Below, piece by piece: positions 3,034 through 30,176 of a stretch of DNA of 30,176 bases. A model generated the notes under the pieces. That model worked only from the letters and a program-made list of their open reading frames with translations. It had not been told where the DNA came from and ran no database searches. Both the position numbers and the translations under genes were made by a program. Location: the IMG/VR virus record IMGVR_UViG_3300002138_000008, positions 1 to 30,176 of that record; one strand, 5' to 3'. Each line of letters opens with the position of its first letter. Positions within the stretch are counted from its first letter, which is position 1. This DNA is from a virus.

Positions 3034-6000
3034 TTAAACATAAATGGCTATAGCCCTGAAGTCTTTACATTTTGGTACGAATGAACTATTTGTTGATTTT
3101 AAAACAATCTTGAATGCCATACTTGAAAATAATTGACTTGTAGAAATATCATCACCTATTTGATCTATAGTATATTCAATTTCACGATATTTATTTGGAT
3201 TTTCATCTACAATAATAGCTTCATCTGGTTGATGTAATATCCAAGGTAATGTATCAAAATTACTATCAGAAGATGTAGATACTTTATAATATAATTCAAT
3301 GTATGTAGAAGATGGTCTATTAACATTTGCCAAAACTCGTATTTGATTTGCTTGACTATCAAGTGAAATGCGTCTAGTTATATATTTACATATAGCAGAA
3401 CCACCATTGGGCTCGAGTTCAGATACAAAGTTTTCAACATAATTTGTATTATCTATATTAGAAGTATCTGAAGGGTTATCTATCAAATTAGCAATAGCAA
3501 ATATTGACATCCTATCCAAATCTATAATTGGAGAAAGGTAACTATTACCAACTAACGTAGCAGTTGCAGTAAATCCTGGCCCAGCGAGTTGATTGTCAGT
3601 ACTTGGTACGCATTGGATTCTGTTGAAATACGTATTTTGGTTAGCAATAACATTAAATGGTGATGACACTACATATGCTTGTTCAGAACCTGGCAAACTT
3701 GTTCCAGTGGCTGTAGAAGCAGTCCAATTTATATTAGTATCTGGAAGAACTAATTGTTGAGACGACAGTTGCATATTATTCATTAAAATATTTCTGTTGA
3801 AATATACAGCTGTACCACCAACACGTCCATCAGAATTTGCAACAGTTTCTGAATTTACAATAAAGAAATCCTTTTCAACTCTTTCTATAAGCAATTCTTT
3901 ATTAATTTCTACTATTGGTATACCATTAACCACAAGACTAGCATTAGGTGCAACTCCACTAATAGTTACATATGAACCATTAAATAATCCATGATTCTTT
4001 GAATATACTCTTAATTTTGTTGAACCATTTATAGTTTCAATAGAATCTGGTGCTAATTTCTTAGGTTGTACATCTACGTTATGGAATGCCGCGACACCTT
4101 GTGTAACAAAATTTGCACGATTCAATTTAAATTTGAGATCTTTCTCTTGTTCAGGTGTCCATGTAGATGCATTTTGAGATTTAAAGAATACGCCTAAATA
4201 TGGTTGTTTAGATATACGATATGCTGGAGTAGATACATCAAATTCCCCCATCTCTGATACCCAAACTTTAGGTTTATCTGACATAGAAATAATCACAATT
4301 GCATATTCTACACCTTGTTGTAGATGTACAGGTGCTTGAAATGTGAATTTAGTAGCAACTGAAGCATCTTCTGAAATATTGTTAACATTTAATATTTTTG
4401 TAACATTAGAAAAAGGTAAAATTGTCGTTGAAGGTTGGCCAACTAAAGTAGTTACTATATGTAAAGTTACAGGGATATTCTCATCAACTTGTTGAAAATA
4501 TAAATCTATACTTGTTGCAAAGATACCTCCTGGCGCATCAACCATAAATGTTTGAGCAAGAGGTTCTCTCCATCCAATAACCCTTTGAGTACTAGACCTA
4601 ACTATATCTACTACAATTTGGTTTGAATTAAGAGCTGTACGATCAAACTTTGGAACTCTAGTGGATAGAATAACATTCTCTTGACTTTCTAAAAGTCCTG
4701 CAGCTTCATACACAGCTTCAGCTGATGTTGTAGAATCTGATGTAATGTTATCGATAGAATCTGTTAATTGAAATACTCTAGACCCAGTTCTAAACCTTAA
4801 TTGATCATTATTTGGAATAATGAATAATCCAGATATAGTTCCAGATGCATTGGTAATTAATTCAGCAGAAGCTGCAAGCCCTATACTTGCTGGCCAGGAT
4901 GTTTCATTGTTAAATGTATATGCAGAAGTGTATGATGGATTAGCATTTGTAAAATCTGTAAAAGACCAAAACTGAGTAGTCTGAGTAGTGTATGGTGTGA
5001 TATTTTTACCATCAAAGAAAGCATATACTTTAGTATTTGGTTTCATCATTTTTGCTTCAAATGATACTATCCTTGAACGCATAAATGGTATAAAATTAAT
5101 TTCAACAACTCTATCGCCAAGATTGTTAGTTATTGTATCTGGAACCACTTCAGTTCTTATTCCATCTCTACTTTGCGAACTAGTAGTTGTAGTTATAACA
5201 TTAGTAGTTTCTATTAGCTCTCTGAAGACCCAATTTGTACCACCCGAAGAACGCTCTGCCGTAGAACCAGACCAATTAGTCTGCCATTCATTCCAAACAG
5301 TACCAGTAACACCAGTTGCATCCGCTAAATCTTTAAATGCATCATAGATACCTTCTTGGTCGATAATAACCTCTGGACGATTTTCAGTATCTTTCCAGTT
5401 GTCCGACTCTGGAGATAATTGCATATCTCCTCTCCATGTAAATACATTATAAGGATTTACAAATTCTGGGTATGATGCATATGGTTGTTCTATATAATCT
5501 ACTTCATCATAATCTAATGTTAGTAATGACCCAGTTTTCACTACATTGCTTGAAGAACTTGTAAACAATTTTAATCTAACTTCATTCTCAGTAAATTGCG
5601 GCCTCATGATTCCTAAAGATTTATCCATAGATACTGAATAATCTGGATGACTTGGATATCCAACATTATGCCCATAGAAATTATCTACAATAAACCCATT
5701 TTTAAAATGTTGTAAATCTATTTGGTAATTAGCAGTGTCTTTTTCAAGTAAAGATAAACTTGTATAGTATTCTAAATTTTTAAGACGACCTTCCAATCTA
5801 CCGATATCACGCATAGTATATCGTTTATTGTCAATCATTTTAGGCTGAATACTTTGTGGTCCAAATGTATATGATCCAACTCGTAATTCATATAACGTCA
5901 TTGAATCTTGTACATCCCTTGGCATTTCAGGGTTTAATGCTGGAACACCTTCTACGATTCCAAATGTACCATATTTATCAACATAAACTTTATCAGTACG

Positions 6001-18635: not shown

Positions 18636-18643
18636 TATAAATA
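18636..18643 (+). promoter_or_regulatory. T4-type late promoter, rightward (gp4 operon)
   Basis: TATAAATAGTATTG matches the T4 late consensus with its extended downstream bases. It lies in the 52-bp gap between the divergent gp48 and gp4 genes. Predicted transcription start is about 18649, giving a 30-nt leader before the gp4 ATG at 18679. It supports the 18679 start rather than an upstream ATG at 18610. Confidence 0.75.
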
Positions 18644-18671
18644 GTATTGAATCAACAACAATTGTTAATAG

Positions 18672-18679
18672 TATTTATA
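18672..18679 (-). promoter_or_regulatory. T4-type late promoter, leftward (baseplate operon)
   Basis: The minus strand reads TATAAATACTATTAAC, an essentially perfect T4 late promoter. Predicted start is about 18666, giving a leader of about 40 nt before gp48. It overlaps the gp4 start codon on the other strand and lies to the right of the rightward late promoter, so the two elements are interlocked. Confidence 0.8.
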
Positions 18680-23141: not shown

Positions 23142-24068
23142 TTAGGATTCTTGTGCGAGTTTACTAAAGAAACTCATTGTATCGTCATCATCTCCCGATG
23201 TAGACTCTACTGGTTTAAATGCAGCACTACGTTGTACTGGTGCAGCGGCAGTCCGCTGAACGATAGGTGCATCATCTTCCATCAAAGCTTCAGCACTACG
23301 CATGACTTGTGCATCTGCACCAGACAAACCTAATACGGAACTTAACTTACGAGATAGCTCATCGTAAGATTTGAAAGATTTAGGATCATTGAAGACTACT
23401 AGTGGATTCAATTGTTTATAAATTGATTCCAATTTTGTATCATCTCCACCTAATAGTGATGAGCTGGCACTAAACTCAGACTTATCATAATTACGGTATC
23501 CTTCAACTTGACGGATCTTTAATTTAAAGTCTGCACCTTCCCAGAAGTCAAATGGATTCAATGGAGCTTCATCTTGGAACTGTGGTTGGATAACATCCAT
23601 GATCTTCTCGAAAATTTTCTTTCCGAATTTAAACATGAATACCTTCCCATCGTTGGTAGGATTACCAGGATCACTTACAACATACACGTTTGACGCATAA
23701 TGTTGACGACGTTTTTGTTTACGTACTTGGTCTTTATCTGATTCTATACCAGAGTTCCACAACTTAGAGTTGAGTTCTGATACAGGATCTGGTTGACCTA
23801 AAGTAGTGAGGGAGTTTTCAATGTACCATTTCCCAGTAGGGCCTTGAAATCCATGATCCCAAAACCTAACCCATGGCACATCTTCACCTTCTGGAGCAGG
23901 CAAAAAACGTAGAACAGCGTAACCGTTGCCGGCTTTGTCTACAGTGGGTTTCCAGAACCTTTCTTCATCTTTAGAGATAGACTTACCGTCTCCCCCAAGT
24001 GACTGACCAGCGGCGACCAATTTATCGATGGAAGCAGAACGATTAGTTTTTAAATTACTAAATGACAT
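23142..24068 (-). CDS. 32: Single-stranded DNA-binding protein gp32
   Basis: gp32 coats single-stranded DNA in replication, recombination and repair and recruits gp59. Evidence: the N-terminal basic part (MSFSNLKTNRSASIDKL), the core ERFWKPTVDKAGNGYAVLRFLPAPEGEDVPWVRFWDHGFQG, then GKWYIENSLTTLGQPDPVSE, KQKRRQHYASNVYVVSDPGNPTNDGKVFMFKFGKKIFEKI, and an acidic C-terminal segment (GDDDDTMSFF) for protein contacts. It has 308 residues (T4: 301). The zinc-binding Cys residues of T4 gp32 (77, 87, 90) have no counterparts: the region reads ENSLTTLGQPDPVSELN, with only the His (DHGF) kept. A sigma70-like promoter lies just upstream, an AAGGAAAA ribosome site precedes the ATG, and a terminator follows. 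Confidence 0.96.
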   Translation of the reverse strand: MSFSNLKTNRSASIDKLVAAGQSLGGDGKSISKDEERFWKPTVDKAGNGYAVLRFLPAPEGEDVPWVRFWDHGFQGPTGKWYIENSLTTLGQPDPVSELNSKLWNSGIESDKDQVRKQKRRQHYASNVYVVSDPGNPTNDGKVFMFKFGKKIFEKIMDVIQPQFQDEAPLNPFDFWEGADFKLKIRQVEGYRNYDKSEFSASSSLLGGDDTKLESIYKQLNPLVVFNDPKSFKSYDELSRKLSSVLGLSGADAQVMRSAEALMEDDAPIVQRTAAAPVQRSAAFKPVESTSGDDDDTMSFFSKLAQES

Positions 24069-24104
24069 TTGTATTTTTCCTTTATATACAGATTTTGAAC
24101 AATT

Positions 24105-24133
24105 ATTATAACACAGTATTGCAAATTAAGCAA
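24105..24133 (-). promoter_or_regulatory. Sigma70-like promoter for gp32
   Basis: On the minus strand TTGCTT (24133-24128) and TATAAT (24110-24105) are 17 bp apart, with an extended -10 (TGTTATAAT). The -35 lies over the end of gp59. Expected start is about 24098, 30 nt before gp32. It lets gp32 be made independently of, and more strongly than, the upstream operon. TTGCTTAA also resembles a T4 MotA box, but the spacing fits a normal -35 better. Confidence 0.7.
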
Positions 24134-24740
24134 GTCTTTTTAACACTATTTTTTTAAGTGCCATAAGATCTGCGTTCACAAAGGGTTTATACTTCCGAAT
24201 CTTTAAGGACATTTCAGGCCACAAGAGTGTCTCTGTTATATTCTTATCAAGTCTTTTTACAAACCCCAAAATCTTCTCAAGTAATACAACTGTTTCCAGC
24301 GATACGTCCTCTTGAAGAAGTAACCTAATGATTGGTGGATGTTGTCCACTATCATTAGATGAAAGAAATAAGTCGTCAAACTTAATCTCCTTTTTATTTA
24401 TATAGTCCACAAGAGTGTCTATATCTTCACTGAATCGATACGTTAATGCATCAGAATACTTTCTCCATGCATTATAATTATCATCACCATTTTCTAACAT
24501 ATCACCAACCCATTTGCTCCCACGAACAAAGTTGGAAACATAGTATGCAACTAAATCTTTAGATTCTACAAATTTCTTTGCGAGTTTTGCAAAATAGTAT
24601 TTATCTTTCCTTGCAAAAAATGCTTTAGGTGTCGCTGAACTTTTAAAGTTATACTTTAAGGCATCATAACTATCAAGTTCGAAATGTAGTTTTATTGCCA
24701 TATAGTACGAATACGCATCATATGGTTGAATCATAATCAT
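24126..24740 (-). CDS. 59: Replicative helicase loader gp59
   Basis: gp59 loads the gp41 helicase onto gp32-coated forks. This all-helical basic protein of 204 residues (T4: 217) starts MIMIQPYDAYSYYMAIKLHFELDSYDALKYNF, the conserved gp59 opening, followed by FFARKDKYYFAKLAKKF, YYVSNFVRGSKWVGDM and HPPIIRLLLQEDVSLETVVLLEKILGF, all typical. Its ATG overlaps the gp33 stop (ATGA at 24737-24740), giving coupled translation, and gp32 follows. The 59-33-32 neighbourhood is the same as in T4. The second Met (24734) is an alternative start. Confidence 0.93.
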   Translation of the reverse strand: MIMIQPYDAYSYYMAIKLHFELDSYDALKYNFKSSATPKAFFARKDKYYFAKLAKKFVESKDLVAYYVSNFVRGSKWVGDMLENGDDNYNAWRKYSDALTYRFSEDIDTLVDYINKKEIKFDDLFLSSNDSGQHPPIIRLLLQEDVSLETVVLLEKILGFVKRLDKNITETLLWPEMSLKIRKYKPFVNADLMALKKIVLKRLA

Positions 24741-24964
24741 AACGGCAATGTGTTATACCCTGGCAGTAATTTACTAGCGATTGCTTCAGCTTCAATTTTT
24801 GCTTTAAGTGGTGCAGATATTAATGGCCCGATGTCTGCTGGATCTATCATACGTTCTTCACATAATAGAAGCACCGAATCGAGGTTAGATATCCCCTTTT
24901 CCTTAGCAAATACTGTTACCAGTTCGCTAAATTGTTTTTTAGTTAGTATATCTTCAATCATCAT
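24737..24964 (-). CDS. 33: Late transcription co-activator gp33
   Basis: In T4, gp33 binds RNA polymerase and the gp45 sliding clamp and couples late transcription to replication, working with the late sigma gp55. This 75-residue protein (T4: 112) has the position and helical make-up expected: MMIEDILTKKQFSELVTVFAKEKG, then SVLLLCEERMIDPADIGPLISAPLKAKIEAEA, and a hydrophobic end LLPGYNTLPL suited to clamp binding. It overlaps gp59 (ATGA) and the upstream membrane-protein gene (ATGA at 24961-24964). TATAAATA-type late promoters elsewhere in the window support a working gp33/gp55 system. No gp55 gene is in view. Confidence 0.82.
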   Translation of the reverse strand: MMIEDILTKKQFSELVTVFAKEKGISNLDSVLLLCEERMIDPADIGPLISAPLKAKIEAEAIASKLLPGYNTLPL

Positions 24965-25179
24965 TTTTTATTGACTCCAATTATTGTAGATATACCAATG
25001 AATAACTGTATTAAAAAAGCACCAAACCATGTCCATAAATCCATAGGCAAATTAAATCCCATAAAGTTAAGTCCCCATATTAAAGTCATAGGTGTAAAAG
25101 CAATTATCACCGCAATAAATAGAACAGCAATAGCCATTCCGAATGCTATACCAAAAATCTTCATAATTAAATTCCCCAT
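24961..25179 (-). CDS. Small two-helix membrane protein, candidate holin
   Basis: The 72-residue protein has two hydrophobic spans (about 7-38 and 49-68), separated by a short Pro/Asn segment (GFNLPMDLW), and ends in NKK. It overlaps the SleB-type hydrolase gene by 13 bp and gp33 by 4 bp, so it is translated with both. A small two-helix protein next to a cell-wall hydrolase is the usual arrangement of holin and endolysin, and I infer a holin or pinholin role. No holin family motif is recognisable, so a generic phage inner-membrane protein remains possible. The ORF itself is well supported by its tight overlaps. Confidence 0.7.
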   Translation of the reverse strand: MGNLIMKIFGIAFGMAIAVLFIAVIIAFTPMTLIWGLNFMGFNLPMDLWTWFGAFLIQLFIGISTIIGVNKK

Positions 25180-25691
25180 TTGTAAAATATATGTGTGTCA
25201 ACATTCCCCTTCTTTTGCATGGTAGCATCTCTACTCCATGCTGGATTAACATACGATGCATGGTAATGTGTAGCACCATCTGTTATATCATACCCATTTT
25301 TATACATCTTATATACCATTACCGCAGACCTTTGTGCTTGGAACCACTTGTCTTGATTTTTTGGATTATCAGACTTGCCGTCACACGTCCATGAAAATTG
25401 GCATTGGTTTATTTTAGATGTTTTAGTATTAGTACCATACCTTCCTTGATACACTACTCCACATACATCTGATGGAAATCTTGAATCGTTGACTCTATTA
25501 AGGACAACAAGTCCAACTGATACCTGTCCAGCAAAACTTTCATTTCGTGCCTCAAAATAAATATTTTTAGCAATGCATTCTATTGCATCTTGTGGTAGCA
25601 TTTCATCGATAGGCGCACTTTGAGATGTGCTTACATTCACTATAATTGAAGTGATCCCGATTAGAGATGCTGTTAGTAGTTTTTTAACCAT
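25167..25691 (-). CDS. SleB/CwlJ-type cell wall hydrolase (candidate endolysin)
   Basis: Residues 1-26 form a Sec signal peptide or signal anchor (MVKKLLTASLIGITSIIVNV, then STSQSA). The rest is a SleB/hydrolase_2 domain: LPQDAIECIAKNIYFEARNESFAGQVSVGLVVLNRVNDSRFP, with the catalytic-type Glu in EARNE (E47/E51), then VCGVVYQGRY, CQFSWTCDGKSD, and the C-terminal HYHASYVNPAWS. Enzymes of this family cut peptidoglycan glycan strands or cross-links in the periplasm. Signal-directed export and the adjacent two-helix membrane protein suggest it is the lysis enzyme. Nucleotides 25214-25246 are repeated exactly at the gp29 end. It overlaps the upstream 387-residue gene by 8 bp. Confidence 0.88.
   Translation of the reverse strand: MVKKLLTASLIGITSIIVNVSTSQSAPIDEMLPQDAIECIAKNIYFEARNESFAGQVSVGLVVLNRVNDSRFPSDVCGVVYQGRYGTNTKTSKINQCQFSWTCDGKSDNPKNQDKWFQAQRSAVMVYKMYKNGYDITDGATHYHASYVNPAWSRDATMQKKGNVDTHIFYKWGI
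25214..25246. repeat. 33-bp exact direct repeat, copy 2 (inside SleB gene)
   Basis: This is identical to 22952-22984 and in the same orientation, 2262 bp apart. Here its minus strand encodes the conserved HxxY...PAWS region end of SleB, so this copy is probably the original. The two copies bracket gp32, gp59, gp33, the membrane protein and the SleB 3' end. Confidence 0.95.
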
Positions 25692-26847
25692 TGGTTATCC
25701 TCATTAAAATGGTTTCTTCGTTTAATCGACCATTTGGCAGAGTATCTTTTGTAGTCAAATTTTCCCAAGCATTATTGATTTGCCTTTGGGTTTTAGAGAG
25801 TATTGTGGGAAGAAACGCCTCTGGTTTGCGGAGGCGTGTAGACCGAGATTTAGCCTGATCCCAATTTTGTAGTGTTGTACCTTTTACCGCTAGTCCATCT
25901 GGACCTGAAGTTATGTACTCAGATAATATCCTCGTTTTCACATTAAATACAAACAGACGTCCTGCCCCAACTATAGTAGTTGGATTAATCGATACTAGTT
26001 TGAACTCTGGTGACTCCTTTAGAAATTTAATCTTAGCGACAAGTTTAGTTGCTGCGACTGGTTTTTTTGTACGAACTTTTCGTACTGTTTTAGAGTTCGC
26101 TTGATGACGTTTTAAATCATCTAGTATTTTATTTAGTATTTTAACCCTCCCAGTTAACTCCTTTTTAGATAGGTGTTTATACCCATCAACAGCCTGGTCG
26201 CACGTCTTATCAATCGCACCTTGCATCTCATCTATACGATCTTTAACCCATGGCGTTATCATACCAACTGCCATGGATGGAAGATCGTGTCGTTTCATTA
26301 ATTCGTATGCATCAAGCACAACAACCCCTCCACCGATCCAAGTATCTTCCATGACCCTAAAGTCTTCCATGATAGTTTTATTAATTTTACTTCGTAAACG
26401 TTGTTGGGGTGTTATTACTTCTATTTTAACATCTTCTGTGGCATCTTCCATTTGTCCTTTGTTAGAGAACTTATCTAACAAAGTTTTACCATGTTGAATG
26501 TTTTCTAGTATAGACTTTCCAATGGATTTTTTTTCATAGGTATTTAAGATAAGACCACGTTCTTCCATCCTAACCAATGCCCCAATAGTAGTTGGGATAT
26601 AGAACGTTCCACCCAATTTAAATAGTGCGATTTGTTCTTTAGTGAGTTTTAAATTAGTTTTGCCATATTCGATCAAGTCATTTATAAATTCTTTACGATT
26701 GCAGAAGTGATTGTACCAATTAAATGACTTCATTATATCAATCTTACGTTCCGGCCAATCTTCTTCATTATTGAAACTTGGTTCTGACCCCATATATTTT
26801 TCTTCAGGGTCTTTGAATCGTACTGCTGATGTTTTCTTTGTTGCCAT
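25684..26847 (-). CDS. Conserved T4-like phage protein, function unknown (387 aa)
   Basis: The N-terminal 50 residues are charged (FKDPEEKYMGSEP, EDWPERKIDIMKSFNWYNHFC). A largely helical middle follows (NDLIEYGKTNLKLTKEQIALFKLGG, DRIDEMQGAIDKTCDQAVDGYKHLSKKE), then a basic linker (KTVRKVRTKKPVAATK) and a C-terminal domain with SINPTTIVGAGRLFVFNVKTRILSEY, GLAVKGTTLQNWD and LRKPEAFLPTI. The last part (LPNGRLNEETILMRI) resembles the end of large conserved proteins in T4-like cyanophages whose function is not known to me. The basic linker suggests nucleic-acid contact. It has its own strong sigma70-like promoter and leads the operon for SleB, the membrane protein, gp33 and gp59, so it is expected early or in the middle period. 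Confidence 0.85.
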   Translation of the reverse strand: MATKKTSAVRFKDPEEKYMGSEPSFNNEEDWPERKIDIMKSFNWYNHFCNRKEFINDLIEYGKTNLKLTKEQIALFKLGGTFYIPTTIGALVRMEERGLILNTYEKKSIGKSILENIQHGKTLLDKFSNKGQMEDATEDVKIEVITPQQRLRSKINKTIMEDFRVMEDTWIGGGVVVLDAYELMKRHDLPSMAVGMITPWVKDRIDEMQGAIDKTCDQAVDGYKHLSKKELTGRVKILNKILDDLKRHQANSKTVRKVRTKKPVAATKLVAKIKFLKESPEFKLVSINPTTIVGAGRLFVFNVKTRILSEYITSGPDGLAVKGTTLQNWDQAKSRSTRLRKPEAFLPTILSKTQRQINNAWENLTTKDTLPNGRLNEETILMRITNG

Positions 26848-28775: not shown

Positions 28776-28955
28776 TTAAACACGTCCAGATACCCAATTT
28801 TTGGCGTATTCTACAGAAGATTCGTAATTTACTAAGACCGCAATGAGAACTTCAATATTATTAAGGTAACAATAAACTTTAAAATCGCCCCAATTCATAA
28901 TTATAAATGCAGAACGATCCCCATTGTGGAATTCATCGCCCATTGTGGAATTCAT
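28776..28955 (-). CDS. Short phage protein (59 aa, or 55 aa from 28943), function unknown
   Basis: This frame reads MNSTMGDEFHNGDRSAFIIM, then NWGDFKVYCYLNNIEVLIAV and LVNYESSVEYAKNWVSGRV, ending at TAA 28776-28778. It looks like a folded small protein, with hydrophobic strands and a helix ending in NWVSGR. The start is uncertain: ATG 28953-28955 and ATG 28941-28943 are both in frame, and both lie in a 19-bp tandem duplication that has disrupted the original beginning (the first ATG GGC GAT copy now runs into a stop after nine codons). No ribosome site is clear. It follows the 67-residue gene by about 20 bp. No known family recognised; coding is probable. Confidence 0.6.
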   Translation of the reverse strand: MNSTMGDEFHNGDRSAFIIMNWGDFKVYCYLNNIEVLIAVLVNYESSVEYAKNWVSGRV

Positions 28956-28958
28956 CGC
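28921..28958. repeat. 19-bp tandem duplication at the start of the short gene
   Basis: CCATTGTGGAATTCATCGC occurs twice in direct succession (28921-28939 and 28940-28958) and is followed by the first four bases of a third unit. The unit length is not a multiple of three, so it shifts the upstream start codon out of frame with the downstream protein. Confidence 0.95.
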
Positions 28959-28976
28959 CCATACATTATCATAATT

Positions 28977-29180
28977 TTATTTTTTAACTACCGACTTTTT
29001 AACTTTAGGCTTATGTTTTTTCTTAGGAGCAGTTTTAACATTTGGCATCTGTGTTGGGAATGGCCAATTTGTAATTGGTGGCGGTGAGAAAGCATCTTCA
29101 GTTGGTTCAATTTTATATGGTGCTTCAATGGTAGAAGTGGTTTCTTTGTTAGTGAAGAAATTTATAATTCGTTTAAACAT
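28977..29180 (-). CDS. Small proline/lysine-rich protein (67 aa), function unknown
   Basis: The protein begins with an amphipathic helix (MFKRIINFFTNKE), has a proline-rich middle (FSPPPITNWPFPTQMPNVK) and ends in a strongly basic tail (KKKHKPKVKKSVVKK). It could bind nucleic acid or membrane. An AAGGAT ribosome site lies upstream of ATG 29178-29180. It lies just downstream of the porin terminator, so it probably depends on readthrough or on an unrecognised promoter. No family recognised. Confidence 0.68.
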   Translation of the reverse strand: MFKRIINFFTNKETTSTIEAPYKIEPTEDAFSPPPITNWPFPTQMPNVKTAPKKKHKPKVKKSVVKK

Positions 29181-29257: not shown

Positions 29258-30097
29258 TTAAAATGCGTGTGATAAACGTACACGAGTTGTGTCTACGTTA
29301 GAACTAACATTCGAATTGTTTTCGACAGTAGCATATGCGACGTTAACAGATGTAGCCTTACTCAAAGCATACTGTGCGCCATATTCAACTCCACGACCAT
29401 TACCGTTTGATACAGCAGCACCAAGAGTAACCCCAGATATTGTATAAGATACACCTAATACACTAGAATCTGCTTTAAAAAGTTCATCACGACTTACACC
29501 AGCACCCAATGTTACACCTTTAAGGGTAACAGCACCACTTGCACGAACACGTTCGGTAGTTTGATTACGATCTACTTTAGCAGAAAATACTCCTGAAGTA
29601 TAAGCAGCACCAATAGCATTTTTATTTGCACCAGTATTGTCAATAGCACGAGTGTTACCTACACTGAAAGACAACCCATACATTGATGGAGTTGTATAAC
29701 TGATAGATTGAAGATTTGATGAACCTGCCAATACAGTACCATCAGTACCGATAACTGGAGCACCACCTTGACCTAATCCTACTATACCATTCTTTGCTTC
29801 AACTTGACCAACTTTAACAGACCCAACTGAAGAATCCACTTGTAAGTAAACGTCATTGCTTTCTGCGTTAGCACCATTACCTAAAACACCTAATTCAACA
29901 TAACCTTTGATTCCCATTCCAGAACCAAGTTTTTCAGCAATACCAACATTAATATTACTATTACTGTTTGGTGAAACTGTATATGCAGTTTTACTAGATT
30001 TAGAAAAGTCGTAACTAACCAATCCACCAATTTTAACTTCAGCAGAAGCCGTTCCAAATGCAGTTAAAATTCCTGCTACAATTAATAATTTTTTCAT
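29258..30097 (-). CDS. Outer-membrane porin (general Gram-negative porin type), phage-borne
   Basis: A Sec signal peptide (MKKLLIVAGILTAFGTASA, cut before EVKIGG) leads a protein of alternating beta strands ending in VRLSHAF; the terminal Phe and the aromatic/hydrophobic pattern are the outer-membrane insertion signal. Strand-and-turn patterns such as VKIGGLVSYDF, MGIKGYVELGVLG, VYLQVDSSVGSVKVGQVEAK, LQSISYTTPSMYGLSFSVGN and VSYTISGVTLGAAVSNG are those of trimeric porins of proteobacteria; 279 residues is on the short side. It lets small solutes cross the outer membrane. The gene has its own phage late promoter, leader hairpin and terminator, so it is expressed as a phage gene. An AAGGAT ribosome site precedes ATG 30095-30097. 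Host origin is likely; the purpose (superinfection block, nutrient entry, receptor masking) is inference. Confidence 0.92.
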   Translation of the reverse strand: MKKLLIVAGILTAFGTASAEVKIGGLVSYDFSKSSKTAYTVSPNSNSNINVGIAEKLGSGMGIKGYVELGVLGNGANAESNDVYLQVDSSVGSVKVGQVEAKNGIVGLGQGGAPVIGTDGTVLAGSSNLQSISYTTPSMYGLSFSVGNTRAIDNTGANKNAIGAAYTSGVFSAKVDRNQTTERVRASGAVTLKGVTLGAGVSRDELFKADSSVLGVSYTISGVTLGAAVSNGNGRGVEYGAQYALSKATSVNVAYATVENNSNVSSNVDTTRVRLSHAF

Positions 30098-30130
30098 TTC
30101 ACAAAATCCTTTAAAATTTAAAATAAAACA

Positions 30131-30145
30131 TAGGGTGATACCCTA
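30131..30145 (-). ncRNA. 5'-terminal hairpin in the porin leader
   Basis: On the minus strand TAGGGT, loop ATC, ACCCTA forms a perfect 6-bp stem. With the predicted late start at 30146 the stem would begin at the second base of the transcript. 5'-terminal stems are known to slow mRNA decay, as in enterobacterial ompA. Confidence 0.55.
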
Positions 30146-30151
30146 CTGCAT

Positions 30152-30159
30152 TATTTATA
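30152..30159 (-). promoter_or_regulatory. T4-type late promoter for the porin gene
   Basis: The minus strand reads TATAAATAATGCAG, 55 bp upstream of the porin ATG, with predicted start at 30146. Its position in intergenic DNA in the right orientation supports function, although the extended bases after TATAAATA match T4 less well than at 18672. Confidence 0.65.
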
Positions 30160-30176
30160 CAAATTATTTAACCTTG

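Follow-up and report, generated by a model that had tools for sequence, protein, structure and literature searches.

A porin gene with T4-type late gene architecture in a T4-like phage: a candidate outer-membrane component of phage nutrient uptake

The window, that is the whole stretch of DNA analysed here, is an IMG/VR record of 30,176 bases and a fragment of a T4-like phage; its contig carries gp6 wedge, gp32, gp33 and gp59 genes, and also an endolysin, which bears out the first-pass annotation in placing the porin on a phage genome. Judged by gp6, the closest isolate is the OM43 phage Melnitz (42%), with pelagimyophages at 37.7-39%. Regarding composition, GC3 splits the contig in two, with 0.12-0.25 in the structural genes (878-22960) versus 0.26-0.31 in the genes for gp32, gp59, the endolysin and a 387-aa protein (23145-26847). 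The porin gene sits right at one end of the contig, 79 nt from its edge on the upstream side, and the features of this region, all on the minus strand, are the following:

30152-30159, minus strand: TATAAATA, T4-type late promoter octamer, ~55 nt 5' of the porin start
30130-30146, minus strand: 5' leader hairpin GTAGGGTATCACCCTAT, directly after the octamer; relatives have a hairpin in the equivalent position with a different sequence (3/3)
30107-30112, minus strand: Shine-Dalgarno AAAGGA, 9 nt 5' of the ATG
29258-30097, minus strand: porin coding sequence (PF13609 Porin_4), 279 aa, stop codon at 29258-29260
30041-30097, minus strand: predicted signal peptide, residues 1-19, MKKLLIVAGILTAFGTASA, read from the sequence; length and pattern are alike in three phage homologues
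29224-29250, minus strand: intrinsic terminator hairpin of 10 pairs, then TTTTT, 3' of the porin gene
28977-29180, minus strand: small K/P-rich gene 3' of the porin, no family; a similar-looking gene, with no porin before it, has the equivalent place in the related contigs L006, L008 and L009
25167-25691, minus strand: endolysin-type cell wall hydrolase (PF07486), 3.6 kb from the porin
24737-24964, minus strand: gp33-like late transcription coactivator (PF16805, 8.8e-17)
24126-24740, minus strand: gp59 helicase loader
23142-24068, minus strand: gp32 single-strand DNA-binding protein

In the same region, a tandem direct repeat (cccattgtggaattcatcg, two copies, 28923-28960) surrounds the start of a small minus-strand ORF at 28779-28955.

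The porin ORF is intact from ATG to TAA, with 279 codons, and its product matches Porin_4 with E = 1.5e-17 and 64.9 bits against a cut-off of 27, over model positions 7-309 of 310; in Pfam at E ≤ 1 it has no other family, those of the enterobacterial OmpC/OmpF porins included. The C-terminal Phe, F279, is invariant in all four distinct phage porin versions. With 20 K/R against 18 D/E, the mature protein carries almost no net charge, which gives no hint of the substrate. Since the Pfam match, the ribosome site, the terminator, the signal peptide and the Phe at the C-terminus are all there, the first-pass proposal of a complete Gram-negative porin gene is confirmed at the level of sequence.

As for the promoter, the window has 9 copies of TATAAATA versus 9.26 expected from shuffled sequence; this is the count of chance, its frequency alone proves nothing, and enrichment was dropped as evidence. 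Support for the octamer before the porin comes instead from the gp33 gene of the window, from the placement of the octamer in L008 and from the related octamer AATAAATA before the porins of relatives. In the L008 stretch, 3/3 copies of TATAAATA are intergenic and 35-46 nt 5' of gene starts, with an intergenic share of only 8.7%; in the relatives L002, L176 and L178, AATAAATA lies 46-47 nt 5' of the porin start, with a hairpin after it, and such an octamer was present in 0.3-7% of simulated leaders of equal dinucleotide content. The leader common to these three relatives is the octamer plus the GGCARTTCTGCC hairpin; its pattern matched 4 contigs in IMG/VR, all already known to carry these porins, and a general late leader as the source of the similarity was rejected on this ground. 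The window leader keeps the octamer and a hairpin, not the hairpin sequence; alternatively, this hairpin could terminate a gene lying upstream, beyond the contig edge. The T4-type late promoter claimed in the first-pass annotation thus holds as a prediction, and a late gene architecture, with the octamer tens of nt 5' and gp33 encoded by the phage, is supported for the porin. Elsewhere, a divergent pair of TATAAATA stands between the two structural gene blocks (window 18636-18679; L008 15916-15958), a feature conserved between related phages.

Four distinct phage porin versions are known, including that of the window; the other three are 56-65% identical to it, each has 279 aa, and the alignment is gapless. 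The closest (65%) is on L002 (IMGVR 3300002142, 14.7 kb); that of L176/L177, identical stretches of two contigs of 340 kb and 107 kb, has 56% identity, and that of L178, on an 89.5 kb contig, has 57% identity and matches Porin_4 with 92.5 bits. The 340-kb contig carries T4 Gp23 (8e-99), and the porin family therefore belongs to T4-superfamily phages; PHROGs, INPHARED and PLSDB held no relative of the window porin. The nearest relatives of the window by gene block (L006, L008, L009, L012) keep the order endolysin, 387-aa gene, small genes, and have no porin at the equivalent place of this block, which makes the porin a cargo gene in the lineage of the window. By the Nei-Gojobori method, dN/dS comes to 0.10 between L176 and L178, to 0.27 between the window and L002, and to intermediate values for the remaining pairs, where dS is near or past saturation; these ratios indicate purifying selection on the phage porins, and their loop-3 region is strongly conserved.

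An AlphaFold model of the window porin, built with four phage sequences (mean pLDDT 56, pTM 0.50), has a signal helix followed by 16 strands, at low confidence. Strands 5 and 6 are joined by a 25-residue loop (102-126, pLDDT <50), which corresponds in position to loop 3 of general porins; the remaining outer loops measure about 2-14 residues, lengths that are provisional given the low confidence of the model. In Foldseek and VIA-align searches, the model had full-length matches to 16-strand porins such as Omp32, OmpU, OmpF/OmpC-type porins and PorB, with Foldseek E down to 1.8e-10 and Z 17-18 over about 230-255 residues, rows within Z 1 counting as tied. One of the best matches is Omp32 of Comamonas (Delftia) acidovorans (PDB 1e54/2fgq; Z 17.8, 254-255 residues aligned), which has 330-332 residues, compared with 279 in the window porin, and 16% identity to it. 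Omp32 is anion-selective. The model suggests, with low confidence, a 16-strand barrel constricted by the loop between strands 5 and 6. The PDB contained no sequence match to a profile of the four phage porins; phmmer hits there to the Cake/Scone designs, short at ~20 residues, were set aside as chance.

In a tree with 46 bacterial porins of sampled genomes, the phage porins form one clade with a support of 1.000, and the stem that leads to it is 1.25 substitutions per site long; their best bacterial matches share 24-29% local identity with them. At 279 aa they are shorter than every one of these 46 porins (301-538 aa), and in a profile comparison phage and bacterial porins align end to end (99.7%). 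No relative emerged when the genomes of 84,980 bacterial and archaeal species were scanned by pattern; such scans recovered 65-75% identical relatives in the viral collection, and weaker ones can escape them. Donor searches in 369 genomes sharing the class of a Pseudomonas genome and in 399 genomes sharing the order of G230, whose porin matches make it Burkholderiales-like, gave best E values of only 1.6e-6 and 7.5e-8, respectively. With a long-stem clade of its own and no bacterial relative in the scan, the porin points to neither donor nor host, contrary to the expectation that its phylogeny would reveal both, and a fresh capture from the host is unlikely.

Regarding the genes beside the porins of relatives, the order in L002 is glnK, amtB, porin, and in L176/L178 it is porin, 378-aa gene, TctA (PF01970, 4.1e-50), signal-peptide protein:

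L176 7061-10347 and L178 7060-10346: cluster 3' of the porin, with a family-less 378-aa protein, a TctA permease and a family-less signal-peptide protein

The last protein of this cluster in L176 has no match in Pfam, NCBIfam, PHROG or PDB, and a TctC identity was not adopted for it. On the 5' side of the porin, L176 and L178 have 15-17 tRNAs and an ARAGORN-called tmRNA (5114-5519 and 4891-5295, respectively), whose predicted tag peptide, ANANTGEVTVSGKNVKFSARTAQRHSLAV, is unusually long. Further phage contigs carry glnK-amtB (L021-L023) or amtB (L024-L026), and directly after each comes the gene for a short protein with a signal peptide and a terminal Phe:

L021 3186-3563, L023 4433-4804, L024 3204-3485, and also in L022, L025 and L026: short signal-peptide proteins after amtB, 94-126 aa

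These have no family match and may be small outer-membrane barrels coupled to AmtB. Several T4-like phage contigs also have a peroxiredoxin-like gene after amtB (L024 3503-4048, Redoxin 5e-25; L028 4471-5001, by sequence likeness only). The amtB of L024-L026 and L032-L033 has gp33, gp59 and gp32 in its vicinity, and the window porin occupies the equivalent region. In the window, the downstream side of the porin is free of transporter genes, and the upstream side, where an amtB could stand, is cut off by the contig end.

Porins with this kind of neighbor have precedent: two phage contigs from the eastern tropical South Pacific oxygen minimum zone carry glnK-amtB-ompL, a cassette assigned to Flavobacteriales-like genes (Gazitua et al. 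2020, PMC8115048), in which an outer-membrane porin adjoins a nutrient transporter, and L002 shares this three-gene order. The OmpL cassette reportedly matches Flavobacteriales, whereas the window family is PF13609 with a predicted fold like proteobacterial porins, a contrast that holds by description; should OmpL prove to lie outside PF13609, the link between a porin and AmtB would have arisen in phages at least twice. Porin-like proteins of uncultured Caudovirales phages are also already deposited as 'OmpC Outer membrane protein (Porin)' (A0A6J5L4P1, A0A6J5LP82), but at 285-420 aa and 15-17% identity over the structural alignment they are no close sequence relatives of the window porin. Another example is Lc (NmpC), a complete trimeric-type porin gene of the enterobacterial OmpC/OmpF family in the temperate lambdoid phage PA-2; it resembles the window gene as a phage-borne complete porin gene, and differs from it in family and phage, the window porin matching Porin_4 only (E ≤ 1) and belonging to a T4-like phage, with a late promoter. 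The glnK-amtB-ompL contigs and Lc are precedents for the window porin, and the rarity of phage-borne porins was somewhat overstated in the first-pass annotation.

Regarding its function, the best-supported reading, with about an even chance of being right, is a late-expressed diffusion porin that serves as the outer-membrane half of a set of phage genes for nutrient uptake. Under this reading, gp33-dependent late transcription would yield a monocistronic porin mRNA with a 5' hairpin, and the protein would be exported and inserted by the outer-membrane assembly machinery of the host; being compact and of the general-diffusion type, it would raise the flow of small solutes through the outer membrane of a Gram-negative water bacterium and cooperate with inner-membrane transporters of phage or host, the inner half being, in related phages, AmtB/GlnK or a TctA-type transporter. 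The analysis shows an intact gene, its family, a predicted fold, its place in a phage, purifying selection, a late-promoter layout and transporter genes near the porin in relatives; expression, membrane insertion, the nutrient role and its benefit are inferred. Several points count against nutrient uptake: late expression leaves scant time for a payoff, the window porin has no visible adjoining transporter on a contig that stops 79 nt upstream of it, its near-neutral charge hints at no substrate, and the porin of L002 and L176/L178 seems to be driven by a promoter of its own and not cotranscribed with the transporter.

The main rival is superinfection exclusion or receptor replacement, in which the phage porin would dilute or replace host porins used by rival phages or by its own progeny; we hold it to be a serious but rather unlikely candidate. 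Porins are a common class of phage receptor, and the Lc porin of PA-2 reportedly acts in this way; the surface loops of the model are very short except L3, and together with the small size of the protein this would remove docking surfaces, while late timing suits sparing progeny a wasted adsorption to a dying cell. However, exclusion proteins are usually early, and late synthesis is slow for such a role; moreover, inner-membrane transporter genes adjoin, or stand near, porins of the window's clade, and among the functions put forward in the first-pass annotation these neighbors favor solute entry over receptor hiding. It is similarly doubtful, though conceivable, that both properties belong to one phage-evolved subfamily of minimal length, with mostly trimmed surface loops that would leave few docking sites for other phages, expressed late from its own promoter in T4-like and larger phages; the phage would pair it with one or another inner-membrane transporter of its own and in this way rebuild uptake through both membranes.

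A part in lysis or release, with a late outer-membrane pore weakening the envelope, is improbable. The late promoter and the nearby endolysin gene are consistent with it, and for Melnitz, the closest isolate by gp6, its authors suggest a lysis role for a curli CsgGF outer-membrane pore (PMC9004378); nevertheless, a 16-strand diffusion porin admits only small solutes, the loop-3 region is conserved, and in L002, L176 and L178 the porin lies outside any lysis cassette. Still less credit is due to a recent, role-less passenger from the host: that the phages closest to the window in gene block lack the gene would fit, but the long-stem phage-only clade, the low dN/dS, the leader conserved in relatives and the phage-like GC3 all speak against it. 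Least probable of all is an assembly chimera, suggested by the position of the gene at the contig end. The GC3 of the porin gene (0.147) is inside the range of the structural genes of the window, as fits phage late genes, and its codon score falls among the values of the phage's own genes; homologues are on independent phage contigs, one of them with Gp23, and T4-type late promoter and terminator are present, which counters the contamination that the first-pass annotation had named as grounds for refuting it.

In conclusion, discussion of phage auxiliary genes has so far dealt mostly with the cytoplasm and the inner membrane, and the present clade of porins, conserved, confined to phages, provided with a late leader of its own and found by AmtB/GlnK or TctA genes, suggests that certain phages alter the permeability of the outer membrane as well, which could limit virus production in nutrient-poor water.
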